Positions 8,501 through 64,000 of a stretch of DNA of 64,000 nt are shown one piece after another. The stretch is from Sipunculus nudus (taxonomy: Eukaryota; Annelida; Sipuncula; Golfingiida; Sipunculidae): positions 110,558,142 through 110,622,141 of the forward strand of contig CM049306.1 in the NCBI GenBank assembly GCA_026874595.1. Direction: 5' to 3'. A program made the translations under genes and the position numbers. The notes beneath the pieces were generated by a model. That model was not told where the DNA came from and did no database searches. It saw nothing but the letters and a program-made list of their open reading frames with translations. Numbering within the stretch: the stretch's first letter is position 1; each line of letters starts with the position of its first letter.

Positions 8501-9210
8501 AAAAAAAATCCTTAAATTTCCCTGTTTTTATCAAATGGTTAATGGGTTACCTGAACAGGATGAAAGGGGTCATTTTGGTGATATTCCAGTGAGTGGAAAT
8601 ACAGTTAGTACAGATTTACCTGTTTTTACCTGTATATACCTTAGCTACATACATATCAAACCAGGTATGTAGAAAATAAATAAAATAACATGATGGACAT
8701 ATACCTGACAGTAAAAGCTGAAAATTTCACAAAGATACCTTTAACGGTTACTGAGTTAATGTCTCTTATATAGATTCATGTCAAAATGTGGAAAAAATGC
8801 AAAATAAATCTGAACAGTAGGAGTGTGACAATCCACAGGCTAATCTGAACAGTAAAGGGTTAAGCTAAAGGACTCCGAAGTATCCCTTAGAATAATGGAA
8901 AATTTGATACAAAAGCTGAAGTAACTGAACAACTAATGCAGAGATCAGCATGATTCTTTGCATGCATATTGACCATTAAGTGTTTTTATTGGTTTCTGCA
9001 GACTGGTGCAGCCACCTTTATTTTTTTTAAAGTTTACACATTTTTCTCTATTTTTGAAATATATATAAATACAGACACAATCTTGGCCTGTTGGTTAATC
9101 TGTTTGATGCTTCAGTTGAATGGGTATATACTACCATTCAGATGATAAAATTTTCTTTTGCGAATCTCTTCCCAGTCAGCTGAGCGTCATGACCCATGGG
9201 TCACTTGTTT

Positions 9211-10130
9211 TATATTTCTAGCTATTTTACTGTTGGTCTTCCCCAGTTCCCTGGTTAACCCTTCATTGGCTGATTCTTGTGGATCAGTTCTTGCGTTATC
9301 TTTCTCCTTTATTTATATTTCTAGCTATTTTACTGTTGGTCTTCCCCAGTTCCCTAGTTAACTCTTCATTGGCTGATTCTTGTGGATCAGTTCCTGTGTT
9401 ATCTTTCTCCTTTATTTATATTTCTAGCTATTTAACTGTTGGTTTTCCCCAGTTCCCTGGTTAACTCTTCATTGGCTGATTCTTGTGGATCAGTTCCTGT
9501 GTTATCTTTCTCCTTTATTTATATTTCTAGCTATTTTACTGTTGGTCTTCCCCAGTTCCCTAGTTAACTCTTCATTGGCTTATTCTTGTGGATCAGTTCC
9601 TGTGTTATCTTTCTCCTTCATTTATATTTCTAGCTATTTTACTGTTGGTCTTCCCCAGTTCCCTGGTTAACTCTTCATTGGCTAATTCTTGTGGATCAGT
9701 TCCTGTACGTGTTATTTTTCTCCTTTATTTATATTTCTAGCTATTTTACTGTTGGTCTTCCCCAGCTCCCTAGTTAACTCTTCATTGGCTGATTCCAGTG
9801 GATCAGTTCCTTTGTTATCTTTCTCCTTTATTAATATTTCTAGCTATTTTACTGTTGGTCTTCCCCAGTTTCCTAGTTAACTCTTCATTGGCTGATTCTT
9901 GTGGATCAGTTCCTGTGTTATCTTTCTCCTTTATTAATATTTCTAGCTATTTTACTGTTGGTCTTCCCCAGTTCCCTAGTTAACTCTTCATTGGCTGATT
10001 CCAGTGGATCAGTTCTTGTGTTATCTTTCTCCTTTATTAATATTTCTAGCTATTTTACTGTTGGTCTTCCCCAGTTCCCTAGTTAACTCTTCATTGGCTG
10101 ATTCTTTTGGATCAGTTCTTGTTTTTTCTT
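9211..10130 (-). repeat. 103-bp minisatellite, right half
   Basis: Nine or so units of the same array as 560-2012, in the same orientation. It starts mid-unit (TATATTTCTAGC) exactly where the left half broke off, so the two halves were one array before copy a of H1 inserted. Units ending in CCTTTATTAATATTTC dominate the right side. Confidence 0.85.
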
Positions 10131-10479
10131 TCTCTGTTATTAATGTGTTGACGGAAACAAACCTCTTTTCCACTTTGTTCTAATTTCTTATGCAAAGCAT
10201 CTTTTTATACATTTATTTTGTTTTTCAAAGTGAAAGCTTTAATGACTTTACTGTTTGAATTTGTAACTTTGAAACATCCATAAAAGAGACATGTACCCAG
10301 GCTGGAGTCAACTTCTGATGTCTCTCCTTTGTTCAGTTATTGGGTGAAACTGAAGCAAGTGCAATGACCCATTCGGTGACACAAGTTTATAACATTGCTT
10401 TACATTTGCTGGACAGAAGCATATCTAAAACTACACTTGTAGCAGAAGCCCTTTTTCTCAAAATAAAGCATGCAAAGAG

Positions 10480-12286: not shown

Positions 12287-12363
12287 CTTAATTTGTTTTG
12301 AAAAATCTGAATCAATCACTATCATGCCTAATTTGTCATTTATTAGATACAAATAGCACATCA

Positions 12364-12817
12364 TTAATTTAAAACTGTTAAAACACAAAGATTCATTTAA
12401 CAACCCTCCTCACTTAAACACTATTAATTAAACACCTAATAATGTAATACAATAAAGATACCCATTATAATACAAATGGGGAGAACTACAGAACCTGGGC
12501 TGCAGTCTAAATGACATAAAAGATATTTGAAGGGATATTTATGGACGGTCATCAAGGTTTTACTTCCTGGGTTCCATGAAAGTACATTAATTAATTTAAA
12601 ACTGTTAAAACACAAAGATTCATTTAACAACCCTCCTCACTTAAACACTATTAATTAAACACCTAATAATGTAATACAATAAAGATACCCATTATAATAC
12701 AAATGGGGAGAACTACAGAACCTGGGCTGCAGTCTAAATGACATAAAAGATATTTGAAGGGATATTTATGGACGGCCATCAAGGTTTTACTTCCTGGGTT
12801 CCATGAAAGTACATTCA
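12364..12817. repeat. 227-bp tandem duplication at the end of the Ngaro element
   Basis: 12364-12590 and 12591-12817 are nearly identical. Each copy has flanking DNA and then about 56 bp of the element's B repeat starting ATATTTATGGACGG. The duplication joint lies in ATTAATTT. It therefore formed after the element inserted. Confidence 0.85.
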
Positions 12818-13024
12818 GGCAAACAGTCTCAAGCTCGTTTGGCATTCATACCTTATCATACTGCAATCACACCTTGTCATATCCCATACCTATTCAAGTA
12901 ACAAGACGATTTCTTATGGGAAAATATTGGACCACCACTGGTGGTCCTCCCGGAATTTTAATTCCGATTCTTCATAAAATCCAAAATAAGGTATGTATGC
13001 AATATGGGGGGACTTAATTCCGCC
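12762..13024 (-). repeat. Ngaro split direct repeat B2
   Basis: Matches B1 at a constant offset of 679 bp, with only a few mismatches. Identity begins at ATATTTATGG and ends at TTAATTCCGCC. Confidence 0.85.
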
Positions 13025-13194
13025 CCCATGAACAACAAATCTCAACATCAATTTTAAAATGTCCTTACATGTTTCCTATCAACTATGATAGGCAAAGTAA
13101 AGTCCAAGTGTTACACTGAAATATCAAACCCCAATTTATTTTATATGATGAAAGTTCAATTAGTTTTGGATGGTGCAGGGGTGGTGGAGGGATT

Positions 13195-13440
13195 TCACAA
13201 GTGGTCGTAGTGGTGTAATCGCAACAATTCTGCTGGATGATGCCTGCACCATGTTTTAATAGGTGTAATGCTGTTTGTGCTGCGGTCACGGAAGACAATG
13301 AAGTCCCTCCTTCTGATTGGGCCTCCTGGCCCTACTTCCAGCATATTAATTACTACGCGAACTTTAATTACTACCTGTGAAAACCAAATAACAATGTCCT
13401 GCCCTACCATAAATGTCTTATTGACCTGCGTTTACTAATA
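13195..13440 (-). repeat. Ngaro split direct repeat A2
   Basis: Direct copy of A1 (19750-20000) with a handful of substitutions. It abuts B1 at 13440/13441. A 170-bp single-copy stretch (13025-13194) separates it from B2. Confidence 0.85.
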
Positions 13441-13703
13441 ATATTTATGGACGGGCATCAAGGTTTTACTTCCTGGGTTCCATGAAAGTACATTCAGGCA
13501 AACAGTCTCAAGCTCGTTTGGCAATCATACCTTATCATACTGCAATCACACCTTGTCATATCCCATACCTATTCAAGTAACAAGACGATTTCTTATGGGA
13601 AAATATTGGACCACCACTGGTGGTCCTCTCGGAATTTTAATTCTGATTCTTTATAAAATCCAAAATAAGGTATTTATGCAATATGGGGGGACTTAATTCC
13701 GCC
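13441..13703 (-). repeat. Ngaro split direct repeat B1
   Basis: Copy of B2. It contains ACCACCACTGGTGGTCCT, a small palindrome that is also in B2. Confidence 0.85.
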
Positions 13704-13817
13704 ACAGATTGGGTGTTCCTTACAGAAAGTAAGGACCGGTCCTGCAATCTTCCCCCCATACTTGAGACTGTTTGCCTTTGTTAAAGTCCATAAAATTAAT
13801 TTTCGTAGATGAGAAAG

Positions 13818-14025
13818 TTCTTGTACAATAAAAATGAAATACATGTATATGAGGAGACTCGTATCAGGCATCAGTTATCACCATTAAAAGTCCTTGTACA
13901 ACAAAATGAAATACATGTATATGAGGAGACTCATATCAGGCATTAGTTATCACCATTAAAAGTCCTTGTACAACAAAATGAAATACATGTATATGAGGAG
14001 ACTCGCATCAGGTATCACCATTAAA
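13818..14025. repeat. 72-bp tandem repeat, three units, in the 3' untranslated part of the Ngaro element
   Basis: GAGGAGACTC recurs at 13851, 13923 and 13995, each time after AAATACATGTATAT. The rest of 14026-14340 holds diverged duplicates of a 'GGCCACTC..GGGTCC' block and no frame. Confidence 0.8.
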
Positions 14026-14344: not shown

Positions 14345-15239
14345 CTTACATGACCTATGGCTTCTGGTTAACATAACTAATGAACAGAATACCTATGGCT
14401 TCTTCCATATCCCTGATCTGTGAGTCGGATATCCCCTGGCTGCTGCTTCGGTAGCAGCTCCTATCCTAAAGAAATGTCCCCGATATTTCCCATCCAGTTT
14501 TGCTGCAGACACGCATGCCCTGAGCGCTGTATCAAATTTGGATCTAATGAAGGGAGTTCCCCCAGGATATGAGAATAAGGGGCCCGTGATTGTACTGCGA
14601 GGTCGTAAAAATTGAAGGAGTGCGGTGACAGGGCAGAGTCTGTTTCTACGCTGTAAGGTGCATGACTTTCTCTATTGAACCCGCCTGAAGATTCTTGGAA
14701 CTCCTGATTAAAAGGCTAATCCTTTCTACCTTTCCATTGCTACCTTAACACCTAACATCTCCAAACTGTAAAACCGTTGTTTTGGCCTTTTCTGACTGTG
14801 GCACTAGTTCCCCTACTTGGAAAAACCCATGAAAACATGTTAGATACAGTGCTTTAAGTAGGGCTCTGTCATAGTAATCATAGTTTTCTAGAGAATCTAC
14901 CAGTTTTTGTAGAACTTCTGATGTGATAGGAAGTCTAGTGTCCAAAGTGGGTGTTTGTCTTTTTGCAGCCCAAACCAATTTTCTGATGGCAGGAGATTCT
15001 GTGGGGTCTGTTAGGGAATGCATCTTGTGCAAGTAAGAAATTGCAGAACAATGGGACAGTAGAGAGCTACCTGCCATTCCCTTTGTGTAAAGATTAGTTA
15101 AGAAGAGGAATATTGTTGCAGCACTGACTGGAGGATGTGCCTTCACCTCGAAACCTAGACTGACACAGAATTCCCTAAGCTTACGCCATACGTTGGTATA
15201 GGCTCCTCTTGTGGATGTTGCCAGCGACTTCTTCAGCAA
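14345..15239 (-). pseudogene. tyrosine recombinase (YR) domain of Ngaro pol, degenerate
   Basis: This domain would integrate the circular DNA copy by site-specific recombination. The part at 14745-15239 is open and in the same frame as RT-RNase H, with no independent ATG; it starts at LLKKSLATSTRGAYTNVW, the usual N-terminal SAM-like fold. Box I reads CFHGFFQVGELV, where the catalytic Arg is replaced by Gln (codon 14817-14819). Frames then shift and stops appear around 14650-14745. CPVTALLQFLRPR and the box II HFFRIGAATEAA (His-x-x-Arg kept) follow. Another frameshift leads to SDSQIRDM, after which the usual GRW/Tyr motif is not recognisable. The copy cannot be active. Confidence 0.8.
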
Positions 15240-16620
15240 ATGAAATGCCTGCCAACTTCAGTTCAGCGATGCGGGAAGTGGAGGATATGGGGTCGGGACA
15301 GAGGCCATTGTCGGTCCTTCTTGTCGGAACAGCTGCATCTGAAAGCGCGAAAGGGAGTCTGCCAGGACATTTTTACACCCTGCTATGTGTCACGCTTTAA
15401 AGAAGATGTTATGTTTCAAGCAGCTGAATACCAGCCGCCTTACTAGAATCATGACTTGTTTATCTTTGGAAGTCTGGTTGTTTAATATGAATACAAGGGC
15501 CATGTTATCAGTATGGATACATACTTGCTTATTTTGTAAGATATGCCCCCACACCTCTATCGCCAAAACAATGGGCGTCATTTCTAAAATTACAATATTG
15601 TAGGTTTTCCAATCCTTTGGCCAAGGGCCACAAAACCAACTGGTACCTAGTATTGCTGCAAATCCTAATTGTTGTGCAGCATCAGTGTAAAGGTCTAAGC
15701 TTTCCGATGAAAATATTCCCACTGACCGGAAAAAACTTTTCCCATTATACTGTTCAAGAAATGCTAACCATGTTCGCAAGTCCTCCTTAACATTCCTAGT
15801 TAGATTAGCTTTATGGAATGGTTTTGCAAGCCCCATGGTGATGTCAATAAGTCTACGCAGAAATGGGCGCCCTGGGACCACCCCGGTGGCAAAGTTTAAC
15901 AAACCTAACAATGACTGCAAGCTTTTTAGTGTAGCCTTTTTCTTTACAAGTGCTGTTTTTATCATATCCCTGCATTTACTCAATTTTTCTTCTGGAAGAC
16001 GGGCTATTTGGGCAACAGTATCTAGCTCTATTCCTAGAAACGTCAGTGTTGTTGAGGGACCTACAGTTTTTTCGTCAGCAATGGGTACTCCTAATTTCTG
16101 GCAGATCTGTAAGAATACATCAAGTGCCCTCTGGCATTCACTCTTTGTTTTGCCTATGAATAAAAAATTGTCCAGCACATGAATCACTTCAGAGCCTGTC
16201 TTTTGCCTAACAATGAATTCTATTGCTGTCGAGAACTTCTCAAACAAATTGCAACTAGCTGAGCATCCCATGGGCAGGCAGCGGTCATAGTGATATAGAC
16301 CATCCCAAGAAAAACCCAGCAGATAATATTCATTAGGATGAATTGGGATAAGTCTGAAAGCTGACTGTATGTCCGATTTTGCCAAATATGCTCGTTTACC
16401 TGTACTGTTTATTATATCGATGGCTTGAGAAATTGAAGTGTAATTTACTGTAGCATGTACCTGAGAAATTCTGTCATTTACTGAGTCACCCTCAGGGAAA
16501 GATGAATGGTGAATTAATCTAAATTCTCCGGGGTTTTTTTTGGGACAAACCCCAAGCGGGGAACAAACCAAAGATGTAAAAGGAGGTGCGATGAAGGGAC
16601 CCGCTATTTGGCCTGCATCT
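15240..16620 (-). pseudogene. reverse transcriptase and RNase H of Ngaro pol, degenerate
   Basis: Copies element RNA into DNA and removes the RNA. The open part (16571-15390) has SPLGVCPKKNPGEFRLIHH, then DIQSAFRLIP with the first catalytic Asp. The polymerase motif reads VLDNFLF, so the second Asp of the usual DD pair is Asn (codon 16167-16169). RNase H follows with LYTDAA, an acidic EMTPIVLAIE and IHTDNMALV. The frame stops at TGA (15390-15392) inside the usual 'HIxG' segment, continues in the same frame through NVLADSLSRFQ, meets a second TGA (15258-15260), then runs into the recombinase. Upstream near 16610-16630 a frameshift separates it from its N-terminal part, which is read in the gag frame. 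Confidence 0.85.
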
Positions 16621-17958
16621 AGCTCTTTTTAATTTTTCTGATACTACTTGAGGGAACTGTCTTGCTGATTGCAAATTTTGTGGGACCCTAGGGCAAGGAG
16701 GAACTGAGCAACTTATACTAAAACCATGTCTAAAACCTTCCACTAGAAATTTTGTCATTTTGCTATCAAAACCCACCTCAGTGAGCATTGTTTCTAGTTC
16801 TTGCACTTTTACCGGCGTTTGCACGAAAGGGCCAGTTCTCTCTGGCTCTGTTCGACTGGTAAGGGCAGTCTTTAACTGGGTGCTGGCCTTTGCATTTGGC
16901 GCAAACATGTTGGTAATTGCACCCGCTGCAAAACTGGCCTTTGTTGAACTTAAGCATGCCCCATCTTGAGCTGCTTTTGTGAGCCCCTCCCTGGTTCTGA
17001 AAGGCCCCCCTTTTGCTGCCGTTACCTTCTGCCCTGGATTTCTGTGATGCTTTACGTAAGGACAGGATACCCTGTCTATGCTTGCCATGCGAGCCTCCTG
17101 TTCTTGCTGTACCTCCTCCCATCCTAACCTCATTTCAGCCCTTCTCTTCCTAAATTCCCTGTCGTAATATGACCAATCCCCCCCTTTGGCTGCAATCTTA
17201 CGAACTGTCGACATATATTTCATAAGGTGGGGGGCTTTAGATGCCCACTTCTCAGTATACACAGCCGTGAATACAATAAAGGCATCTGTCCACATGTTGA
17301 TAGATGTGATGGGAGAAGGTTTCTGTTTTGCCCACCTAATAGACACCTGATCCCCAGGAGAACCTATTTCGTCGCATTCTAGGTAGAACTTATCCTGCTG
17401 TTCCTGGTTTAACACGGAGCGTAATTCTATGAATTTGTCTGCCCATATATCCTCTCTTAGACCCTGCCTAACAGATGAGCTAAGTTTTACATGAGCTGTG
17501 CCTCCACAAGCCTCACCAGAACTAACATTTCTGCCTGACATGCGAGTCTCCTCACCTGTTATAGAAGAAACTGCTTCATGTGTGATGTCTTCTAGTAAGA
17601 TGTCATCCTCAGAGTCGTCATCTGTCTCCACATCAATCCCTGTTTCATCTGGTTGGTTTCCGTTGGTACTTTCGCATGACTGAGCTTGATTTGCTCTACC
17701 CTTTCTCAGCTCCTGCATCTCCTTCTGGAGTGATGACACTGACGATACCAGCTGCGCCAACAGTGCTGATGAACTTTGCTCCTCGGCCTGAGTGCCTTTT
17801 CTGTTTTTACCATTCCTTGTAGTTTTGCTGGATGAACACCCGTTAGAAGATGATGTTGATGGCTGTTCCTCAATCTGGCGAAGCCTCTTTTGTGGCTGAG
17901 ATACATCTTGCGAGAAACGCGCTGGCGTCTTACGAATCCTTGCTCCCCTGCCTGTCAT
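16519..17958 (-). pseudogene. Gag of the Ngaro element, joined by frameshifts to the pol N-terminus
   Basis: Structural protein that packages element RNA. The 479-codon frame starts MTGRGARIRKTPARF. A Ser-rich linker, a short coiled coil (SVSSLQKEMQELRK) and an acidic stretch follow, then the core with NMWTDAFIVFTAVY and YYDREFRKRRAEMRLGW. The Cys/His zinc-binding segment (CSGCNYQHVCAKCKGQHPV) lies in a different minus-strand frame (16778-17122), so a frameshift near 17040 is likely. The last part of the long frame (ETMLTEVGF, FRHGFSI) is the start of pol. SPLGVCPKK is then read correctly only after a further shift. The start codon is the first ATG after the spacer. Confidence 0.75.
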
Positions 17959-18169
17959 CCTGAAACATAAAATAGCACAGCAGCAGTTCGGTTACAAAAC
18001 TGGTAACCGATCATGTATCTTATATGATCTTATATATCATGTATATGACCAGCAGGTGCAAGCTTGAATGTGTTGCGCTATTTATCTATATACATATATA
18101 TACAAGGCCAATTCTTTAGCTATGCCAAATTAGCATACTGCATTTTTTAAGTATATAATTAAAATATAT

Positions 18170-18480
18170 ATTCAAGTAGCCCACTGGGCATTTTTATTTT
18201 TTATTTTTACGCCATGTATAAGGATGTATGACAAGCAAGTCGACACTCTTTGTAGTACAAATATAGAGCAGCCCCTTGGGCATTTTTTTTTTTTTTTTTT
18301 TGTTTACACAAATAAAAGTGCAATATACAGTAGCCCACCAGGCATTTTTTTTTTTTTTTTTGCATATATACATGTGCGATATATACCAATTTTTTTTTTT
18401 TTTTTTAATAGTTTTGCATCTTTTTTTTTTTTTTTGAGAAAATATATACAAGCCCCTAAGGCAATCTCTTTATACCTATG
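18170..18480 (-). repeat. poly-T tracts with a repeated GCCCAxxxGGCA motif, between gag and SGNH
   Basis: Four T runs of 13-20 bases alternate with AGCCCACTGGGCA, AGCCCCTTGGGCA and AGCCCACCAGGCA. On the element's coding strand these are A tracts punctuated by small palindromes. No frame is present. It may be spacer or regulatory sequence. Confidence 0.7.
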
Positions 18481-18794
18481 AGAAAATGAACATAAGTCCC
18501 TTTTCTTATAAATAAAAAAAAAAGAAAAGGCCTCATAGCAATTGTATACAGGATATACATAAACCCAATTGGCACCTCTGAATATTCATAAACCCATGCC
18601 TATATATAGGAAGCTGTGTGTCAGCTTAACACATAAGTTTGTATAGCTTACTTATTGTAAACGAACACGGGAAAGTTGTCATCAGGTTACTCATTTATAG
18701 TAATCCATGCCTGTTGACAATTTCAGCAATTCTGATGTAAATCCAACCACTGGTGGAAATCCAAATGGTAAGTACAGATAGATGTTTGATCCCT

Positions 18795-19415
18795 TCATAC
18801 TTGACCCCGCAGAGCCCTTACAAGACCTCCCCTCAAACTTTTATACCAACACTTGGTACCGGTTGTATTAAAATGCACACCATCATAATCAAACAAGTGG
18901 GGACCCCATGTAAAATTTTTAGTGTTATCCCAGAATGTGGAAAAATCAGTGTCCTCTAATACTGCCTCCAAATACTGGTTTGTAACGCTGACCTTGCTTA
19001 AGTAATTGTCTGGATATTCCCTCCCACAATAAGGGGGATAGCGGGGGCCCAGGGAGGATACCAACACCCGTGAAACGCCAAATTCCTGGTACAAGAGCTC
19101 TGCCAACTGAAATATGCGGAAACCCACTACCTCAGGTCTACCCTCAAAGCCTTTTTCCGAGAGGTCATTCCCCCCGATGGCGAGCAAAACGATCTGTGGG
19201 TTTAAACTTTTTACCACGTCCATGTCGTACTGTCTAATTGTGCGGACGCAACGACCGCCTACACCATGAATATTCATGTTGACAGCAGATTCGTCAAACC
19301 CAAAGTTAGGTTTTAGGGCCGTGATACTGGGCGGAAGTGCCGACAGGGCATGTTTCAGCCGGCGGGTCTCGGATGCCCCTAGTATTAACACCAAATCGTA
19401 AACAAACGCCGCCAT
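18795..19415 (-). CDS. SGNH/GDSL-type hydrolase encoded 5' of gag in the Ngaro element
   Basis: A 206-residue open frame with no internal stop. The ATG sits in AAAATGGCGGCG, a good start context. Block I is LILGASE (Ser15 in the nucleophile position, G-A-S in place of G-D-S). Block II has HGVGGR (residues 50-55), block III is AIGGNDL (80-85, with the Asn), and block V is YDGVHFN (Asp178 and His181). Length and motif order fit a single SGNH esterase domain, with no signal peptide. SGNH domains are known from some retroelements and may hydrolyse lipid or acyl esters; the substrate here is unknown. A related frame begins at 63849 in the same relative place in a second element, which supports it as an element gene rather than a captured neighbour. 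Confidence 0.85.
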   Translation of the reverse strand: MAAFVYDLVLILGASETRRLKHALSALPPSITALKPNFGFDESAVNMNIHGVGGRCVRTIRQYDMDVVKSLNPQIVLLAIGGNDLSEKGFEGRPEVVGFRIFQLAELLYQEFGVSRVLVSSLGPRYPPYCGREYPDNYLSKVSVTNQYLEAVLEDTDFSTFWDNTKNFTWGPHLFDYDGVHFNTTGTKCWYKSLRGGLVRALRGQV

Positions 19416-19749
19416 TTTGGTTTGACCCGGCGAGGTCAGAGTTCAAACTATCGCCTGGAAATGCGTCTTTAAGATGGGATGTTTTAGAGAATTAGCAGTC
19501 AAGTTCGACACTGGCATAAATGTGAGCCCTCCTACATGGGGGAAAATATTCAAGAAACTTTTACCTCAACTCTCCGTGTGTTCGGCACGATCGTCCGTGC
19601 CTTCGCTGTTCAGCAAGATCCAGGTCAACCGGGCCAGGTCAGGGGTCGCCATGATCCCTTGTCTTGGTCGCGTATTGGTTGTGCTGGTCGTGAAGCTTTG
19701 TGGGTTGTCGTCTTGAGGTAATCTATTCTTTCGTATCCGAGGTAGTAGA

Positions 19750-20000
19750 TTTCGCAAGTGGTCGTAGTTGTGTAATCGCAACAATTCTGCTGGATGATGC
19801 CTGCACCATGTTTTAATAGGTGTAATGCTGTTTGTGCTGCGGTCGCGGAAGACAATGAAGTCCCTCCTTCTGATTGGGCCTCCTGGCCCTACTTCCAGCA
19901 TATTAATTACTACGCGAACTTTAATTACTACCTGTGAAAACCAAATAACGATATCCTGCCCTACCATAAATGTCTTATTGACCTGCGTTCACTAATAATA
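19750..20000 (-). repeat. Ngaro split direct repeat A1 (5' terminus)
   Basis: Direct copy of A2. It starts, in the minus direction, with TATTAGTGAACGCAGGTCAATAAG. A minus-strand frame through it (19566-19967) is the 5' leader and I do not call it a gene, because the same frame in A2 runs into unrelated sequence. Confidence 0.85.
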
Positions 20001-21500
20001 TATATTAATGAAATATGTCATAAGCAAATTACATATATATTGTAATTCATGTGTTCTTGTAATTTATCAAGTAATTCTTTAGACAAATGCAACTGTTACC
20101 TTGACTGTAACTCAGATTTTAAATATCACATACGCTTATAAAGCAAACATGACACACCAAGTCCAATAGAAGACATCTGAATATTAATCGAACATGATGT
20201 TCAAGCAGCCATTCACATAATATTGGCCAAACATGAATGTACATTTATCTGGAAATCCCCTTTTCAATTTATTTATAGATCACCCGCCTAATGACAGGGA
20301 TTAGCTGTAACTATTACGTTATTGCACTAGTTGACACGACCATTTTGGAAAGTCCCTTTTCCGCAACTAGTAAATGTATACATGACAAATGATGTTGTTG
20401 CAGCTGAAATAGACTTGCTGGAATTTACGGTTAGTGTGGAGAACTTTAATTTTTGGAAGTTTAATCTTGTAAATAAAGAAGTTTTCAACAAAAAAGGTGC
20501 AATCATGCTTGTGAAGCGGATAATTCTCCGTAATTCGGACTTGTGAAAAAAAGTTGTCCTGCCCACGTAGCGGTGGAGTTCATTACCTTGTTCTTTTTTT
20601 TATTATAACCAGGATAACTGGAAGATCTCACATACCGTAATGTCTACATCAGTTTGTATCCTTCATTAGTTCCCACACTATAAATTTCCTGAATCATATT
20701 TTTCTACATTACATATATGAATTCATACACCAACATACTGTGCCGATATTAGCTATTGCCTGGCGGTCCGTATGAACAGTAATTGTAGCTGTGATTAAAA
20801 CGGTTTTGCATGCGGAGATGAATCAAATGTCTACGCTGTTCACCTGATAACAACACATCGTTATGTCTTAGTGCATGGCAGTAACATGATAATTTATCGG
20901 AACAATTATATCAGATTTGCCACTTCATGTATGTAAATAGGCAAAACTGTCGCTTAACTGATACCGATGGGCCATCTTTGCTTCAGACTTGTTACAGCAT
21001 GGATGTGATTTGAACAATATAACTTGAGGTAAAAAATGTTTTTTAATCGATAATATTTTGTTTACTTAATAATTGAATAAGAAGGTTTTGTAAATGGGAC
21101 AAAAATCACATTAGCTGATGATCATATACTAGTAATCCACTTTGGACAAACCTTGCACGGACCACTGATCACTGGCATGACCTGGTGCTACAAGACATCA
21201 AAGGTTAAATGGAGATCGTCAGAGTGCTTTGAACTGCAGCTACAAAGGATATACTGCTGTCTTCAAGAGTTTTTATTTGATAAATCCTGGTAATGTCCGT
21301 GAAATAATTTTTTCCCGCTGTAAAAATCTTATTAGAATCTCCCAAATAAAAACTTCCGCGTAATTTGTTGGTTACTGTGGCCATTTGGTTAGAGGCATGA
21401 ACAGTTATATTGTGAACTATGTGCCCCTAGTTCAAACCTATCAGTTTTTCCCCCTTTAATGTTATTCCCCCATCCCAGTTTAAAAATATGATAAACATAT
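20001..21500. other. no gene recognised
   Basis: AT-rich intergenic sequence. The 71-codon plus frame at 20331-20546 (VVAAEIDLLEF, NFNFWKF) has no recognised domain or splice context. Confidence 0.45.
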
Positions 21501-26000: not shown

Positions 26001-29000
26001 AGTTGCTGCTGATGCCCTGTCTTTCAGGCTCTTGGTTTGTTGCATCATCTTGTGATACTTGTCTCTCAAACTGGAAGTAAATCACAATTTAACTGTCAAT
26101 GTTGTCCGGCGCTCACACAGCTGTGACGGCAGAAAGCAAGTCATCAATCAACATCTGTAAATGTTTTGGTGAGTAGACAGGTTTGGCTGCATGTCTGTCT
26201 ATATATCTGCTTAAAATCATAATCATACAATTTGTTAGTGAGACCAGTCACTTTGTATATATATATATATATATAAATTCCCTGTAAAAAAGAAGAAAAT
26301 AAATAAACTTCAGCAATTCGTCAAACAGAATGATTCAAGCCTGACCTTTCTGTGACTGTCCTCTTGTTGATCCATGTGTCCATTAACCAATGAGTTGCTG
26401 CTGATGCCCTGTCTTTCAGGCTCTTGGTTTGTTGTAACATCTTGTGATACTTGTCTCTTAAACTAAAAGTAAATCACAATTTAACTGTCATTGTTTTCCA
26501 GCTTTCACTCAGCCATGATGGCAGAAACAAGTCATCTATCAACATCTGTAAATGTTTGGTGTGTGGACAGGTACATACAAAACTAGAATACGGGTAGTTG
26601 ACAAGCGTCTATGTGTATCCGCCAATATCAGAGTAGGACGGGTGAAGGGAGGCATGGATTGAGTGGCTCTGGGAAATAGACAGGATGTTTTGCATATACG
26701 CATGGATGACGTGAAAGCAGAGTGGGACAGGTGAAGTGATGCATGGATTGAGTTGCGAGGGGAAACAGAGAGAGGTGTGTTGCATATAAGCATGGATGCT
26801 GCAGCAGAAATGTGTATAAAGGTGGCGCCACCTGCCACAAAATCCAGAAAGTTATCCAAGATGTATACCATTGCAAAATTTAGGGCAGATAAGTCAAACC
26901 ACTGCCAAGATATGAGTGATTTTATCCCTCGGCAGACAAACAGAAGGATACTGTGCATTTCATTCAGAGTTAAAATGTTTTAAGTGTATCCATTAAACAG
27001 TAAAACAGCATACTGTATATAATTTCAGTTATTTTCTCTTGAGTTGGTAGGTTATTTATCAGGCTAAACAAACCGAAAATTACATGCTGACAGGGATAAA
27101 TCTTGTGAAACATATTATCTCCCCATGCAGCCTGAGATACATCACTAATAACCTAAAATTACCTTCTGTGTCACAGAATGCCCAGAGCTAAACACATGCA
27201 GAACACTTTGGAGCCACCTGACTACATCCTCTGATGGGGCTAAAATCAAAATTTGTATAAAGTATACTCATAAATAATATCCAAATTTGAAGAACTGTCA
27301 CTTAACAGAATCCTCAGCTGAGAGTCAAGAATACTAGTAATTTTTTTTTTAATATCCAAAGTTGGTAGTCACACCCAAGGAATCCTGACAAGTCTTAATA
27401 ATACTTGTCTTTACCAAATTTAATTTCAAGGCATGCTAATCCTGGAAAAACTATGGCTTCCTATGACTGTTTAAAAAAATCATGGAAGACTTGGACCACC
27501 CATACTGGCATAGCCACACATAGATTTTTTGAAGTTGCAATAAAAATACTATCCTCAGTGCTCAGGAACTAGGGCTCTGTGACTGGGGGGGGGGGGGGAG
27601 GGAGTTACAACACCTTTAAATATAAATACAGAATACGGGTATAGAAGCCCAGCAGACTTTACTTATAACTTATGAGAAAAAACGTGCCATGGTCAAATTC
27701 GTGCAAAACATAAGGTACCAATTTTATATTTTTGCTGATATTTTAGAAAAATTTAAAAGATTTTGATCTAATTTTGGGTTTACAATTAAATTTTGATTAA
27801 TTAAAGTTATATTTCTGAAAAAAAGTCCCAAGCTTTAACATTTTTCCTGATATTTTACAAAGTGCAATATGTTTGGGCCCATAACTTTTTTAAATTATAT
27901 AATACAGACCAAATTTATGGCATGTACATAGGAACTATATAGAGAAAAATTTACGGTAAATATGAGGAAAAACAGACGAGTGGTGTTGATATTAGGCAGT
28001 CCTGAAGTGTGAAAATAGGTTTTTAATAAAAAATTGAGGTTTTTCCTTAATTTCTCAAAAGAATGAAGTGGTAAAGACCCAGTTTTTGGCTTGGTAGGAG
28101 ATCTTGGGGACATCTCACAATATGCTAAATTTTGGATTCCTAGGTCTTACGGTTTCAAAACGTGCCACATCTACGGACAGACCGACCATGGACCAAGCCT
28201 ATAGCTCAGATGACTTTTATTCAGCTGAGCTAAAAAGAGAACTCTTGTTCTCTTCACTTACTGACATTATGAGATAGCTTGACCTTTGAAACAATATATT
28301 TGCTATTTAAATAAGCATGCATGCATATTTAACTTTTGGCAAAAACTGTAAGACAATAATGAACTAGATGTGTCGGAACAACACGAATGCCCCCGCCTAG
28401 GGCAAATTAGAAACATTTGTAAAATTTTGAAAAATTTTTTAAGTTCAGGAGGTGTAGTATGGTCAAAAGTAGGTCAACAAGGGCAAAATGCAAACTCTAT
28501 CTGTAACGGGTCATTATCAAGCAACACACCAAAAATCATGCCGTATATGCAGGCACTGTGAAAAAAAGACCATACATATGCATTTTCCAAAAATTTCAGT
28601 CTTTCATGCAATTTTCTATGTTTAGGAGCCGTAAATTAATCAAAAGTAGGTCAACCGGGACGAAACGCGAACTTGATCTGTAACTGTCATTATCTGCCCA
28701 CACATAAAAAATCAGGGTGGTATCTGCAGGCATTGAGGAAAAAAAGTCAGTACATATGCATTTGTTATGAAAATTTCTATTTTTCATAAACTTTTCTTTG
28801 TTTAGGAGCAGTCAAATGGTCAAAAGTAGGTCAACTGGGACAAAACAAGAACTCGATCTGTAACTGGTCATTATCTGCCTACACATAAAAAATCAGGCCC
28901 GTATCTGCAGGCACTGCGAAAAAAAGTCCATACATGTGCACTTTTTTATGAAATTATCTATGTTAGAGCACCGTCAAATGGTCAAAAGTAGGTCAACTGG

Positions 29001-32000
29001 GACATAACGCGAACTCGATCTGTAACTGGTCAATATCTGCCTACACACCAAAAATTAGGCCAATATCTGTAGGCATTGCGAAAAAAAGTCTGTACATGTG
29101 TATTTGTCATGAAATTTCATATTTTTCATGAAATTTTCTATGTTCAGAAGCCGTAAAACAGTCAGAAGTAGGTCAACTGGGACAAAACGCGAACTCGATC
29201 TGTAACTGGTCAATATCTGCCTACACACCAAAAATCAGGCCAATATCTTCAGGCATTGCGAAAAAAAAGTCGGTAAATATGTATTTGTCATGAAATTTCA
29301 TATTTTTCATGAAATTTTCTTTGTTACGGAGCTGTAAAGCGGTCAAAAGTAGGTCAACTGGGACGAAACACGAACTCGATCTGTAACTGGTCAATATCTG
29401 CCTACACACCAAAAATCAGGCCAATATCTTCAGGCATTGCAAAAAAAAGTCCGTACATGTGTATTTGTCATGAAATTTCATATTTTTCATGATATTTTCT
29501 ATGTTCAGGAGCCGTAAAACAGAAGTAGGATAACTGGGACAAAACGCGAACTCGATCTGTAACTGGTCAATATCTGCCAACACACCAAAAATCAGGCCAA
29601 TATCTTCAGGCATTGCGAAAAAAAGTCCGTACATGTGTATTTGTCATGAAATTTCATATTTTTCATGAAATTTTCTATGTTCAGGAGCCGTAAAACGGTC
29701 AAAAGTAGGTCAACCAGGACAAAACGCGAACTCGATCTGTAACTGGTCTATATCTGCCCACACACCAAAAATCAGGCAAATATCTGCAGGCATTGCGAAA
29801 AAAAGTCTGTACAACTGTTTGATTTCGGAAGGACGGAATGACGGACATGGGTAAAACTATATGCCCCGGCCACTTTGTGTCCGGGGCATAAAAATAAACT
29901 AAGCATTTGTTAGATAAAAAATTGTAAGGCCAAACATGATGTGCCAAGATGTAAATGATCTTATTCCAAAGAAATCATGGTACAAGAATTCATGGTCAAC
30001 TTGACACAAAGAAAACAAATGAATTGTTTTACCTGGACAGAAAATTCTCATTGTTGCAGCCTGCAGCTGCTGCTGCAGAGATGATATTATCTGTGCCTGC
30101 TCTGTAAACAATAAATATCCCATTTGATTTAACTTGGAATAAATTATTTTTTTATGTTTCTCTTATGTTGCGTGTAGCATAAAACATCCCCGAGTTCCAC
30201 TCACACAACGAAGATGTTAAATGAAAAACTGACTCACAAATATAGTACAAAATATGTATAATTATTTAAACAAACATTATTTACAATATATACAATACAT
30301 GAACACAAAGTCTCTAACACATAATAACTAAATCTTGGTGCGGTATAAAATGAAGAAATACTTATCTGCTGTAAATCAAAGTCACTGGTGCTGGTTCGAA
30401 GAAATAAAAATGACTCCGGGGTTGCTCTGAGGAGTCATAACGAAAGTTCAGTTCATAATCCGTGCACAGCCATAATAAAGTCCAAAACGTCCAAAATGTC
30501 TCCGCCTTATCACAAGGAAACTACACATCATTAGGCCTGGATATCCCTGGATATCAGTTCTTGTTTGCAACCCAATTCAAAATCACTAAATGAAGGGTAT
30601 TTATAGTGTCTGTGGACCTTAACGCAATATCGATCGATCCACTTTTAAATTCCAGTTCAGGTTGTTTAACAGCTGTTAATGAATGAATGAAAACGTTCTC
30701 TTTGTCCGTTTATTTGTTGTTGCCGGAGTTCATTAGATGACTGTAAGCGACACGGGTCAACGCGTTCCTGTTGTTCCTGGGTCAATGGTTCTAAGGTCCT
30801 TCCGTGAGTGCCCTGCCATCGCGTACGGACATACATCACACTTAGTTCTCAAAAATTTGCAAAACATTATTTAGAATTTGCAATTTTTTATCAAACAGGT
30901 TATAATTTTTGGAATTATATAAAAAACTTCTCATTAACTTTCACAGGTAGAAAAATCTAATTGCTAATTTTAAGCCATTTTAAGCATTTTACAGTACAGG
31001 AAAGGAAAATCATCAACGAGAATTACATGATAAATGTTTAAAGGTGACCTTGTATGTAGAAGTCTTTTTGCTGCAGTTGTTGTTGTAACACTCTCACATT
31101 TTCACGTTAATTCTGGACATCCATGGTGGAGTATGAAGTTCCTATAAACATGATATGAAATACAAGAATAGAAAAAGGTGTCAATTTAATTATAGTCTTA
31201 GTTTCGGAAATAAAAAAAATGCAAAGTGATCTTCCTTAGGAAAAATATACTTATTTTTTTGTTTTTCATATGTATTAAACTTTTGATAAGCTAAAAGGAG
31301 AGGCCCTGCTAAAATTAAACCCTGTAAACTACAGTTTTGCAGATACTTTGTTTTCAGTCCACCCCTGTGGCCACCACATAGATTTTTGGAGAACTCCTCT
31401 GTAACCCCTAGCCAGAATTTGATCTATGTCACATGAGAACTGCTGTGCCCTCATTTCTGGTTGACCTTTGACCCTTCCTCTCTCCACAGCGTCCATCTGT
31501 ACGTTTGTTTTCACACATAATTCAACATTTCTTGGGACCCTTTTGATCTATCGGGCTGAAATTTTGCACAAGTGCAGCTCTTGTATAGCTCTGTATCAAA
31601 CACAACCATTTTTGCACAGTGTCTATCTGTTTGTCTGCCTTGGGTTAAAATCATTTATATCTTGACAGTGCTTAGATTTATCAGCCTCGAGTTTGCATGT
31701 GCATACATCTTAGAATTCTCATTTAAATGAAAGGTGGGGCCACCTACAAGCATGTTTAAGCATGTATGAATCTTACACGGTCATCATACATAAAACTGGT
31801 GCTCAAACTTTCTTACGGACGCTTGGTTCTTAATGTACAAGTGTCCGATGGGACGCGCAAATTTTTAGCTTTAGCACCTTGTATCAGTGATTGATCATTA
31901 CCAGGTGCCTCAAACATGAATAAACTAGTTATGTAAACACTGCATTGATAACAAAGGCCTACATTATCATATAAGCAAATAGGCATATAATGACAAGATG

Positions 32001-44173: not shown

Positions 44174-44642
44174 GTAAGTCTCTGACAACTTATAACAGCC
44201 ACATAATACCTTTAATTACCAAGGTTTAGCTACAGCAGTATGGTGAACAATATTAATTTTTAAAGCTTATGTTTATTATAGTCCAAAGTGAATATTAGTT
44301 TTATTTTTTGAATATAAATAAAATAATTTGTGATATTTGTTTATTCTGGATCCTCAAGAACTTTGTTTGGCTGAAACTGAATAAATACCAGACATGGTCA
44401 GTACTTTGCAAATGTATTTGAATGCAAATATGAATATGTACTCCATAATTTCATATATAATGATAGAAATACAGGTAAAAATGTAAGTATTTGAATACAA
44501 ATGCATTCATGAATATATTCTGTAATATTATTTTAATAATCATTTATTTCGACAATATAATTAAAAAATCTTTGATAAAAAAACAGGTGATACTGTTATC
44601 ATTTTTATTTAAATTATACTTGACACAATACTTATTATTAAT

Positions 44643-45625
44643 TTTATGCCCCGCCACAAAGTGGCTGGGGCATATAGTTTTACCCATGTCCGTCATTCCG
44701 AAATCAAACAGTTGTACGGATTTTTTTCGCAATGCCTGCAGATATTGGCCTGATTTTTGGTGTGTGGGCAGATATAGACCAGATACAGATAGAGTCCGCG
44801 TTTCGTCCCAGTTGACCTACTTTTGACCGTTTTACGGCTCCTAAACTTAGAAAATTTAATGAAAAATAGAAATTTTCATGACAAATACACATGTACGGAC
44901 TTTTTTTCACAATGCCTGCAGATATTGGCCTGAATTTTGGTGTGTGGGCAGATAATGACCAGTTACAGATAGAGTTCACGTTTCGTCCTGGTTGACCTAC
45001 TTTTGACCGTTTGACAGTGCTCTAACATAGAAAATTTCATAAAAAAGTGCACATGTATGGACTTTTTTTTTGCAGTGCCTGCAGATACGGGCCTGATTTT
45101 TTATGTATAGGCAGATAATGACCAGTTACAGATCGAGTTCTTCTTTTTCCCCAGTTGACCTACTTTTGACCATTTGACTGCTCCTGAACATAGAAAGTTT
45201 CATGAAAAATAGACATTTTCATAACAAATGCATATGTACTGACTTTTTTCCTCAATGCCTGCAGATACCACCCTGATTTTTTATGTGTGGGCAGATAATG
45301 AGTTACAGATCAAGTTCGCGTTTCGTCCCGATTGACCTACTTTTGATTGTTTTACAGCTCCTAAACATAGAAAATTTCATGAAAGACAGAAATTTTTATG
45401 GAAAATGCACATGTATGGACTTTTTTTCACAGTGCCTGCATATACTGGCATGATTTTTGGTGTGTTGCTTGATAATGACCCGTTACAGATGGAGTTTGCA
45501 TTTTGCCCTGGTTGACCTACTTTTGACCATACGACACCTCCTGAACCTAAAATTTTTTCAAAATTTTACAAATGTTTCTAATTTGCCCCAGGCGGGGGCA
45601 TTCGTGTCCTTCCAACACATCTAGT
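44643..45625 (+). mobile_element. P-family element, copy b, five ~175-bp units
   Basis: Starts TTTTATGCCCCGCCACAAAG. Ends GGCGGGGGCATTCGTGTCC...CACATCTAG at 45624. GTTGACCTAC recurs at about 44811, 44991, 45156, 45331 and 45510. Opposite orientation to copy a, with the same termini and core. Confidence 0.78.
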
Positions 45626-51868: not shown

Positions 51869-54547
51869 ATGAGTGAAGGAGATAAGTGTGAGCAGAGGGG
51901 GCGTAAATGTAGAGGACCTTACTGTAAGAAATACATGAAGATAGATACAAAATATGAGCAAATTGTGATTAAAGATAAAGACTTCTACTTTGAACAGACA
52001 AATAGTGGAAATTTTGAAAGAGATGCACCTAGCTGTAGTTATTACCAACAGAATAATGAGGAACCTTTCTATGATACAGTGGAAACAGTTGAGGAGCTAA
52101 AAGACCTACTGTGTGCAAGTGTCAGTGCTAATTCTGTTGAGTCAGAACAGGAAACATGGGATACTGGTAGTGTTAACATGGAGATGAGCAGTGACCAAGT
52201 GACACTGGAAGAGCTTGACATTTTGGAAGATCTGTTAGAGACCTATTATCCAGATCCACTGAAGGACACCACAGAAAGTGATGAACAGGGTCACAGTTCA
52301 CCTACAGATGGACCGTCAAATGAATTGCCTTTATATGAAGGTGCATCTGTGAGTGTAGGGGCTGTGATGCTTCTCCTTGCATTGTATGTTTCAAAATATA
52401 GTGTATCAATAGATGCTTTGCAGTACTTACTTGCCATTATTATCTGTGCCTTCCAGAATCCAACAATTTTTGTAGAAATGTCTACTCGTTTAAACAGTTC
52501 TTCACTTTCCTAAAAAACCCTCTTCTGTTTCATTACTTTTGTTCACATTGTTTTCAGCCAGTTGAAGACAAGAATGTCACAGTATGTACTAATATGTATT
52601 GTCAGAAAGATTTGAGAGCTATTGGTGCAAAATCATATTTTCTTGAATCTCACTAGTAAGTCAACTGCAAACATTATTTAACAGACCAGGCTTCTATAAT
52701 GATTTACAGTGGCGCTTCCAAAGACAAAATGGAGATACAATTAGTGATATCTATGATGGTGATGTCTACCAAAATCTGTTTTGTAATGAAGGTATTTTAA
52801 GCTCTCCTGATAATATCAGTTTCACATTCAATACTGATGCAGTGCCTGTTTTCAAGAGCAGCAAAGTGTCCATTTGGCCACTTTATGTGGTTATAAATGA
52901 ACTTCCATATAAGAGACGCATGAGTTGAGACTGCACAGTTTTAGCTGGTCTGTGGTTTGGTGAATCAAAACCAAACATGAACATTTTTCTCACACCCTTT
53001 TATTCTACTTTTACTGATCTTGAAAAGGGAATCATTGTAAAGTCACCAGAAAGAGGTGAATTTACCTGCAAAGCAGTTTTACTATGTGGTACATTTGATT
53101 TGCCTGCAAGGAGCCTTGTTTGTAATAGCAACCAATACAATGGTCAATTTTCATGTTGGAAATGTCTTCAGAAGGGAGAAACAGCTTCTTCTGGTAAAGG
53201 CTGGGCACACATATTTCCATTTGACAAAGGTGACCCAAAGGGTCCTGCATGCACCTTGACAGGTGTTGTCCAAGATGCAAAAGAAGCAGGCCAGAAACAG
53301 ATTGCTGGAATGAGGAATCATGTTACCAATGGTGTAAAGGATCCAACTTGGTTGATGATGCTTAAATACTTCGACTTTCTTAATGGGATAGGGATAGATT
53401 ACATGCATGGCGTCCTACAAGGATTGCAGAAAACTTTGCTAACCATGTGGTTTGGACAAGGCCACAAATCACAGCTCTACAGCCACTCTGAGAAAGTTGA
53501 TCTTGTTGATCAGAAACTTGCCAGTATCAAACCCCCTTCTGACATAGGTCGCCTGCCAAGAAGTGTGTCAGCTCATCTCAAGTACTGGAAGGCATCAGAG
53601 CTTCGTTCCTTCTTACTGTATTTTGGAATTCCTGTGCTCTCAGGCATTTTGCAAGAGCAGTATATGGTCCATTATGTGTTATTAGTGCAAGCAATGAACA
53701 TTTTATTGAAAAGAAATATCCACAGATCTGAGATTGATCTTGCAGAAAACCTTCTTATTAAATTCTGTGAAAGCTGGATTTCTCTATATCCAGCTAGGTT
53801 TATGACACTAAATGTCCATCAACTGGTGCATTTGGCTGATGATGTGAGAAAACTTGGTCCATTATTTACTCATAGCTGTTTTTTTTCGAGGAATTGATTC
53901 TTCCTGAAACAAATCAGTGGAACTCAGAACATTGACAGTCAAATCATTACATCTCTCATTTTTTCAGAAATTACCTGAACTTAAAAATGATTGTTTGACA
54001 CCAGACACTCTCAAATTGTATAGTGACATGTGTGCTGGTCACAGGCCTATTAGGAAATGTGCAATTGTAGATAATATTTATTTGTTTGGAGGCATCAAAA
54101 GAATATCTCTATCTGATCTTGCACCTTCTATTATAGATGCCATACAGGTACATCTTAATTGTGCTTTGCACATTCGTGAGATCGCTACCTACAAAAGGTT
54201 GGAGATAGTGAAGGGTGAGCATAAGCTCTTAGTGTATGGGTCAGAATATTCCCGTATGTTAAAGAGGAATAATTCATGTATTAAAATATCTTGACAGAGA
54301 AGGCAATATATGTTTTGCAGTTGTTGACTTCTTTGTTCAGTTCCTGCAAGACCAAGTTTACAACTTGGCGATTGGACATCCACTCCATACAAATCATGTC
54401 ATATCACTTGTATTCAGATTCCTAAGCCCAGTCAATACATTGCAGTGCCTGTGCAATATATTTCTGATATGTGCATATACTTCCAGTCCACATGAACATG
54501 ATGAAGCCTATGTCATAACATATCCTAACAAACTAGAGGGAGACTAA
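51869..54547 (+). pseudogene. tnp2-type (CACTA/EnSpm-like) transposase, decayed
   Basis: A DDE-type DNA transposase of the Transposase_21/tnp2 kind would cut and paste the element. Pieces in order: 51869-52513 (ATG; CxxRGRKCRG Cys cluster, acidic middle, LPLYEGASVSVGAVMLL); a frameshift near 52490, then YFCSHCFQP...CTNMYC; 52690-52970 with DIYDG, FTFNTDAVPVFKSS, WPLY and INELP; a TGA at about 52925; 52977-53897 with GLWFG upstream, FDLPARSLV, CWKC, KYFDFLNGIGIDYMHG and NVHQLVHLADDV; more shifts; and 53917-54294 plus a tail ending PNKLEGD at 54547. At least four frame changes and one stop. No terminal repeats identified. It starts right after a UGCG-segment remnant. Confidence 0.8.
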
Positions 54548-62755: not shown

Positions 62756-63080
62756 TTTAAAGACTTTTTTTAAAGACTTTAACAAATAGCACTTAAACAT
62801 AGTCAATACTGGTACTTGTTCAACAAAAAAACTGGTAGTATATGGTTACTGCAGCATTTGACTGCTAATTAAGCTCTATGTAGGTTTTTAACGGGTCAGT
62901 ATATCACAGAGGACATTAAGAAATTATATCAACAAGTAACTTTGGGCGTGCTGCTGACTCTGGATTTTTCTACAGCTACCTGTAAATAGCAGGACTAAAA
63001 AAGGAGATTGTTCTTAGCTTTCTGTTGATGTATAGAACAGGCACATAGTCATTCAACAGAGGCAACAGCATAAGCTTTTT

Positions 63081-63244
63081 TTTTATGCCCCCGCCACAAA
63101 GTGGCCGGGGCATATAGTTTTACCCATGTCCGTCATTCCGTCATTCCATCATTCCGAAATCAAACAGTTGTACGGACTTTTTTTCGCAATGCCTGCAGAT
63201 ATTGGCCTGATATTTGGTGTGGGCAGATAATGACCAGTTATTAC
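63081..63244 (+). mobile_element. P-family element, copy c, cut short by a Ngaro-like insertion
   Basis: Starts TTTTATGCCCCCGCCACAAAG and includes the first part of the ~180-bp unit (GCCTGCAGATATTGGCCTG). It breaks at GACCAGTTA, where other copies continue ACAGATAGAG. Confidence 0.75.
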
Positions 63245-64000
63245 AATTATTGAACAGAGGTCAATAAGCTTTTTATGGGTCGACTGGTAGTCCATTTACT
63301 CCAGCGGATAATTGTTCAAATTAACCGCTTGAAGTAGTCCGGTTACATATGATGTATCCTGTTGCTACCGTCAGCCGTCTGGGCCAATCACGCTCTGGTA
63401 CTACTTTTCTTCTGCGGTCGCAGTACCGCCGTTATGCATAACAATAAATAGGGGGAGGCCGGGTGGGACGGCAACATTTTTTCCACAACTGCTGATTGAC
63501 AACTAGTTTACATTTGGATATTTACGACATCGCTACTACAGCTGCCAAGAAACGACCTCATTTGGCCTGCTATTATACAACGAAGGATGCGAGACGCCCT
63601 GATATTTCCACCGCTTGGATCGGCCCCGACGACAACACAACTGGCTCAACACCATCACACTATTCACAGGGACAAAAACAGCATCGTTCCAACAAAGCAT
63701 AGATCCGACTTAATTATAAGGTACAGTAATCAATTGCCTTCAATTTATCAACCTATAGCTTAAACCCCCCACGTCGTCTAAGGGATCGTAAGTTACTAAG
63801 AAAAGGAGCTCAGATACCGTCGATCAGGACGATCGGACACTTATCAAGATGGCGGCGTTTGTTTATAGTAGCACCCTCATTTTGGGAGCCTCAGAGTCCC
63901 GTAGGCTTAACGAGCAGTTGTTAAAGGATCCTAAACCCCCCCTCAAACAAAATTTTGGTTTCGACGAGGATACCGTCAAAATACACGTTCATGGTACGGG
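63245..64000 (+). mobile_element. second Ngaro-like element, 5' end, runs off the window
   Basis: The start ATTATTGAACAGAGGTCAATAAG resembles the A1 terminus of the first element (ATTAGTGAACGCAGGTCAATAAG). About 600 bp of leader precedes an SGNH frame at 63849, the same spacing as in the first element (about 585). The body differs enough to be another subfamily. The frame at 63496-63702 is leader sequence with no known domain. Confidence 0.75.
63849..64000 (+). CDS. SGNH/GDSL-type hydrolase, partial (N-terminal ~50 residues)
   Basis: Starts AAGATGGCGGCG. MAAFVYSSTLILGASESRRL then QNFGFDED and HVHGTG parallel the first element's protein (LILGASE, NFGFDES, NIHGVG). The block I Ser and block II Gly are kept. 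Cut by the window edge. Confidence 0.8.
   Translation, partial: MAAFVYSSTLILGASESRRLNEQLLKDPKPPLKQNFGFDEDTVKIHVHGT

Follow-up and report, generated by a model that had tools for sequence, protein, structure and literature searches.

The stretch of DNA analysed here, a window of 64,000 nucleotides from contig CM049306.1 of Sipunculus nudus, carries a broken retroelement in which a putative esterase gene lies ahead of gag and is still open. What kind of element places such a gene first, and does the survival of its reading frame reflect late decay, selection on the protein or use by the host? The three explanations come from an earlier reading of the letters alone (the sequence-only reading), which had described intact SGNH hydrolase genes as the first genes of two tyrosine recombinase (YR) retrotransposons. 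The two are called here element 1 and element 2.

Structure and classification of element 1

Element 1 is a 7.2-kb retroelement on the minus strand (20005–12762) bounded by split direct repeats. Its 5' repeat half, A1 (19748–20005), matches A2 (13191–13448) with 97.3% identity over 258 bp, while B1 (13441–13703) matches B2 (12762–13024), the 3' end of the element, with 97.7% identity over 263 bp; the A2 and B1 matches overlap by 8 bp at their junction. The resulting order A1-(genes)-B1-A2-B2 is of the Ngaro type, this being the layout given for Ngaro elements in two reports (PMC9210276, PMC8547959).

The remaining features, all on the minus strand, comprise a leader of 590 bp with six upstream ATGs (19416–20005), the SGNH/GDSL hydrolase frame (18795–19415), an A-rich spacer of 836 bp with 22 ATGs (17959–18794), a gag-like region which runs into the start of RT and whose limits were set by eye (16613–17958), RT/RNase H (15260–16612), and the remnant of a tyrosine recombinase gene (14396–15257). 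Between 15393 and 16571 the domains RVT_1 (PF00078, E 2.5e-14) and RT_RNaseH (PF17917, E 3e-6) were both found past the Pfam cut-off. The YR pieces gave weak matches to Phage_int_SAM_1 (PF02899, E 0.025) and Phage_integrase (PF00589, E 0.068), both below the cut-off; weak, piecewise matches are to be expected because the gene is broken, and the location of the remnant agrees with the Ngaro-type order. No Pfam match to a methyltransferase domain, a feature of DIRS and PAT elements, was obtained in the scanned pieces of element 1; the interval of about 130 bp that separates the RT/RNase H piece from the YR piece is too short for such a domain. NCBIfam yielded no match and Rfam none at gathering scores. 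Judged by its sequence, element 1 is best classed as a Ngaro-type YR retrotransposon, recently dead, whose first gene is a stand-alone putative SGNH esterase.

Several repeats and one frame may be recorded in passing. A 72-bp tandem repeat (13814–14017, 2.8 copies) lies between YR and B1. In the SGNH-gag spacer (18201–18450, minus strand) there are several A-runs, some of them followed by short words of the GCC...GGGC type, which to the eye resemble a decayed tandem array. A 227-bp tandem duplication (12363–12815, 99% matches, 1 difference in 223 bp) spans the tail of B2 and the adjoining flank; it therefore arose after insertion and looks younger than the insertion itself. A 133-aa frame in the leader (19967–19566) was dropped as a gene, having no Pfam match and no counterpart of 120 aa or more in the leader of element 2.

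The SGNH gene of element 1

The frame at 19415–18795 (minus strand) runs for 206 codons from ATG to TGA and possesses all of the catalytic blocks, as the sequence-only reading had it when calling the gene intact. It scores above the cut-off for Lipase_GDSL (PF00657, 24.1 bits against 23.6) and 1.2 bits below that for Lipase_GDSL_2 (PF13472, 31.7 bits against 32.9, E 2.8e-7). The blocks occur in order: GAS with Ser15, HGVGG with Gly53/54, GGND with Asn83, and DGVH with Asp178 and His181. Block I thus reads GAS, not GDS. We take Ser15, Gly53/54, Asn83, Asp178 and His181 to be the catalytic residues. The profile match, together with the Ser, Gly, Asn and Asp/His blocks in their proper order, places the predicted protein in the SGNH/GDSL superfamily. 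Since the block of the catalytic serine lies no more than 15 residues from the start, the product would be a bare domain devoid of an N-terminal extension. None of 2000 single-base shuffles of 18001–20000 contained an ATG-started frame as long as this one.

A single-sequence AlphaFold model of the protein was poor (pLDDT 39.9), and a PDB fold search with this model returned no match at E <= 0.001. Among solved structures, a sequence search with E up to 10 found four matches, the best of them a designed protein (E 0.05); the solved esterase of ZfL2-1 (4c1b) was not among them.

The frame sits between A1 and gag. As had been suggested, a YR retroelement here has SGNH as its first gene, separate from the others, and this placement merits description.

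Decay and age of element 1

A three-frame reading by eye bore out the earlier statement that pol is dead in this copy, RT/RNase H and YR both being broken by frame changes and stops. Close to its start RT shifts frame, and its catalytic aspartate motif reads LDN, which we count as altered relative to the canonical form. A stop codon interrupts the RNase H frame, and in YR several stops accompany the frame changes. The gag reading shifts frame around a zinc-finger-like segment (approximately 17075–16800), which was judged by eye and had no profile match in Pfam. Altogether at least six lesions were read by eye from gag to YR. That SGNH is the only open gene of the element, as had been claimed, is right in substance, with the qualification that a gag/pol frame of 479 aa is mechanically open; as the zinc-finger-like segment lies in another frame, the 479-aa frame appears not to be the gag reading throughout.

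How much does an unbroken frame mean in such a copy? In the BLAST alignments the two repeat pairs, A1/A2 and B1/B2, show 13 differences over 521 sites, a count in which the A2 and B1 alignments share the 8 bp at their junction; this amounts to 2.5%, or 1.27% per lineage. About eight substitutions would be expected in SGNH at that age. The probability that the frame survives under neutrality is then 0.55 to 0.21 for an assumed indel/substitution ratio of 0.05–0.2, widening to 0.08–0.74 when the age is halved or raised 1.6-fold; it is 0.17–0.35 when the rate is instead scaled from 6–10 lesions in gag-YR. A frame of this size may well outlast such an interval under neutrality, and the open SGNH frame in this copy is therefore unremarkable. 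Late decay, the first of the reasons that had been offered for its retention, suffices, and the gene would still be open on account of a young insertion and its own short length.

The same arithmetic bears on the idea that the host maintains the SGNH of this copy as a domesticated gene while the remainder of the element decays. SGNH is indeed the sole unbroken gene beside those lesions. Nevertheless, by either estimate it could quite likely have stayed open under neutrality, and the gene still lies inside an element with both ends. We rejected domestication on the decay arithmetic as highly improbable, and found nothing in favour of host use. More generally, the divergence of split repeats offers a simple yardstick for how much weight to give to an open ORF in an element that is otherwise dead.

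Element 2 at the end of the window

Only 760 bp of element 2, a distant relative of element 1 on the plus strand, fall within the window, its gag, RT and YR lying outside. Its 5' end was set with the aid of a dispersed repeat of approximately 180-bp units, which forms tandem arrays at 28681–29898 and 44642–45546 and occurs as a single unit at 63061–63240 that element 2 interrupts. All nine units inspected, of twelve other matching ones, share sequence past the point at which element 2 begins, and so represent the uninterrupted site; as the single unit gives way to element 2 past position 63240, the 5' end lies at 63241. A leader of 608 bp with five upstream ATGs follows (63241–63848), and then the first 50 codons of an SGNH gene (63849–63998; tblastn 1.2e-11, 29 of 50 residues identical), where the window ends.

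The two leaders are weakly similar (local alignment score 58, against a maximum of 35 in 60 shuffles), with a 33-bp match of 82% at their very ends. This similarity and the SGNH start are what lead us to infer that element 2 is a YR element; tblastn detected no second RT in the 64-kb window. Accordingly, the earlier claim that two YR elements have SGNH ahead of gag is shown for element 1, and is inferred for element 2 from an SGNH start. The same start and motif spacing, also claimed, can be followed through the start and block I of element 2, blocks II, III and V falling beyond the window. The leader length of 585–600 bp that had been given is nearly right, at 590 bp in element 1 and 608 bp in element 2 when counted from the break in the dispersed repeat.

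Elsewhere in the window, three frames at 51869–54294 (plus strand), one of which weakly matches DUF4218 and Transposase_21 (tnp2), both below the cut-off, are perhaps the remnant of an EnSpm/CACTA-type transposon. Two tandem arrays about 7 kb apart, at 687–2015 (13 copies) and 9209–10141 (9 copies), have similar units of 103 bp.

Selection on SGNH between the two copies

Over the 50 aligned codons the two SGNH genes differ at 62 nucleotides and yet keep the 29 identical residues. When 62 substitutions were placed at random, a mean of 16.2 residues was kept and the maximum in 20,000 trials was 26; only 29% of the simulations contained no stop. When the first six codons are left out, 23 of 44 residues are kept, against a neutral maximum of 21. 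The number kept exceeds the neutral maximum, which argues for selection on SGNH during the evolution of the element, so that the start of the protein was held by selection while the families of the two copies diverged. By the NG86 method dN is 0.40 and dS 4.3, the latter saturated, and dS is not computable without the first six codons. The test comprises two copies and 50 codons, and only for these does it answer the earlier refuting condition of a dN/dS near 1. Selection on the protein, the second of the reasons offered for retention, thus holds between the families of the two copies and not within the copy of element 1.

Searches for relatives covered viral contigs and bacterial and archaeal genomes, and have no bearing on animals. 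No related locus was obtained in the viral contigs for SGNH, RT, gag, YR or the two-copy SGNH alignment, the SGNH query flagging one stretch as encoding a relative with no locus returned; nor was any obtained in the bacterial and archaeal genomes for SGNH or the alignment.

Could SGNH be a passenger, captured from another retroelement and having no part in retrotransposition? Esterase ORFs are described in CR1, RTEX, Penelope and rotifer LTR elements (PMC3905857, PMC5408684), and the account of the rotifer elements reports extra ORFs without significant departure from neutrality (PMC5408684). The GC3 of SGNH (0.51) also differs from that of RT (0.38, p = 0.002), although not from that of gag (p = 0.14). 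The constraint between the two copies, however, requires that the protein was of use over the evolution of the element, and we regard a mere passenger as unlikely.

Start context and expression

Within the window the sequence ATGGCGGC is confined to the two SGNH starts; composition predicts 0.45 occurrences, hence two are not striking by number. A longer run of 17 bases, ATGGCGGCGTTTGTTTA, which begins with ATGGCGGC, opens both genes and is absent elsewhere in the window at up to two mismatches (0.01 expected). Synonymous identity in codons 2–6 is 4/5 against 7/23 elsewhere, a difference that is not significant (p = 0.06); the match at the start may therefore reflect only Met-Ala-Ala and a good start context. 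The context itself is TISU-like in element 2 (CAAGATGGCGGC, 63845–63856, plus strand), and the corresponding bases of element 1 are CAAAATGGCGGC (19419–19408, minus strand). Set against the 12-base TISU consensus, element 2 fits exactly and element 1 deviates at position 4. In the TISU report the motif is bound by YY1 and is associated with short 5'UTRs, of 12 nt at the median; besides its part in transcription it signals the start of translation where the leader is very short, and its positions 1–4 are said to matter for translation and are dispensable for YY1 binding (PMC2518114). A precedent for control of a non-vertebrate transposon by YY1 is the lancelet ProtoRAG (PMC7481187).

ATGs are scarcer in both leaders than in shuffled versions of them (6 against 9.3 in leader 1, 5 against 9.2 in leader 2), so that scanning to SGNH is not specially blocked. 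Given the 22 ATGs in the spacer before gag, simple scanning would be a poor route to gag and perhaps an adequate one to SGNH.

One route to gag would be splicing, SGNH lying within an intron of the gag-pol mRNA which extends from a donor in the leader to an acceptor just 5' of the gag ATG. Each leader does hold a donor-like AGGTA, 151 bp from the SGNH ATG in element 1 and 130 bp from it in element 2, and an acceptor-like site with a score of 8.7 stands directly 5' of the gag ATG. At 5.9 and 4.8 the donors do not stand out, though, sites scoring 6 or more occurring at 2.2 per kb; three other acceptors in the same stretch score higher, and the scoring matrices were not trained on this genome. 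We consider such an intron very unlikely.

Proposed role of the SGNH protein

The reading we prefer, and hold to be rather probable as a whole, is that of a recently dead Ngaro element with SGNH as an accessory esterase of the element and a possible TISU/YY1-like start. The enzyme would serve the element and not the host. As proposed for the CR1/L2 ORF1 esterase, it may attach to acidic membranes or lipids and hydrolyse an acyl ester, and this action upon lipids might allow particles or RNPs to assemble at a membrane, or to leave one. The esterase function would here reside in a separate protein and not in a domain of a larger first-ORF protein. If the SGNH ATG lies within a combined promoter and initiator (ATGGCGGC, TISU/YY1-like), the gene could have a short-leader transcript of its own, which would bypass the five or six ATGs that precede it in the leader; gag lies 836 bp downstream behind its 22 ATGs and would then need another route.

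A bolder form of this proposal, namely a Ngaro lineage in which the esterase has become an independent first gene, started from a TISU/YY1 promoter-initiator of its own and made from a separate short-leader mRNA uncoupled from gag-pol, we find doubtful. In the literature searched there was no description of such an early-gene layout, with an SGNH mRNA of its own, for YR retrotransposons.

Comparison with known systems

The closest counterparts are DIRS-53_XT and DIRS-54_XT of Xenopus tropicalis, Ngaro-like elements which, like element 1, possess gag, RT/RH, YR and an ORF with an SGNH domain; the description of DIRS-53_XT gives A1/B1/A2/B2 repeats as in element 1, whereas none were found in DIRS-54_XT (PMC9210276). 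According to the same account the hydrolase ORF follows YR, its function is unproven and the ORFs overlap, in contrast to element 1 where SGNH comes first, 836 bp before gag (PMC9210276). The Ngaro elements of Cafeteria and amphioxus are described with three ORFs (PMC8547959, PMC2632668).

Outside this group, the first-ORF esterase of ZfL2-1, a member of the CR1 clade, hydrolyses an ester slowly and binds acidic phospholipids, and membrane targeting has been proposed for it; the ORF1p esterases of CR1, L2 and RTEX share with element 1 the SGNH catalytic residues, a 5' position and being element-encoded (PMC3905857). The ZfL2-1 esterase is, however, described as one domain of a multi-domain ORF1p with a coiled coil (PMC3905857), unlike the stand-alone protein of 206 aa in element 1, which has no detectable sequence match to it; with 4c1b absent from the matches to solved structures, the functional analogy is therefore distant. 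A separate GDSL ORF within a retroelement is also reported from bdelloid rotifers, as ORF3 of the Vesta LTR elements and in Athena, but in Vesta it follows gag and pol and the class of element differs (PMC5408684). Texim, associated with fish Helitrons, is likewise an SGNH gene travelling with a mobile element; unlike the gene of element 1 it contains introns and accompanies DNA transposons (PMC4021074).

No YR element with SGNH first was found in the literature searched; one may be shown in Repbase or the founding Ngaro papers, which lay outside its scope. SGNH in Ngaro elements is thus already published, and the new part, within that literature, is its 5' placement. The position of SGNH is not fixed within Ngaro-type elements. 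Esterase genes are found time and again in retroelements that are not related to one another (CR1/L2, RTEX, Penelope, rotifer LTR and Ngaro elements), their role being unproven, and a separate 5' esterase gene would let the role of the enzyme be tested apart from gag.
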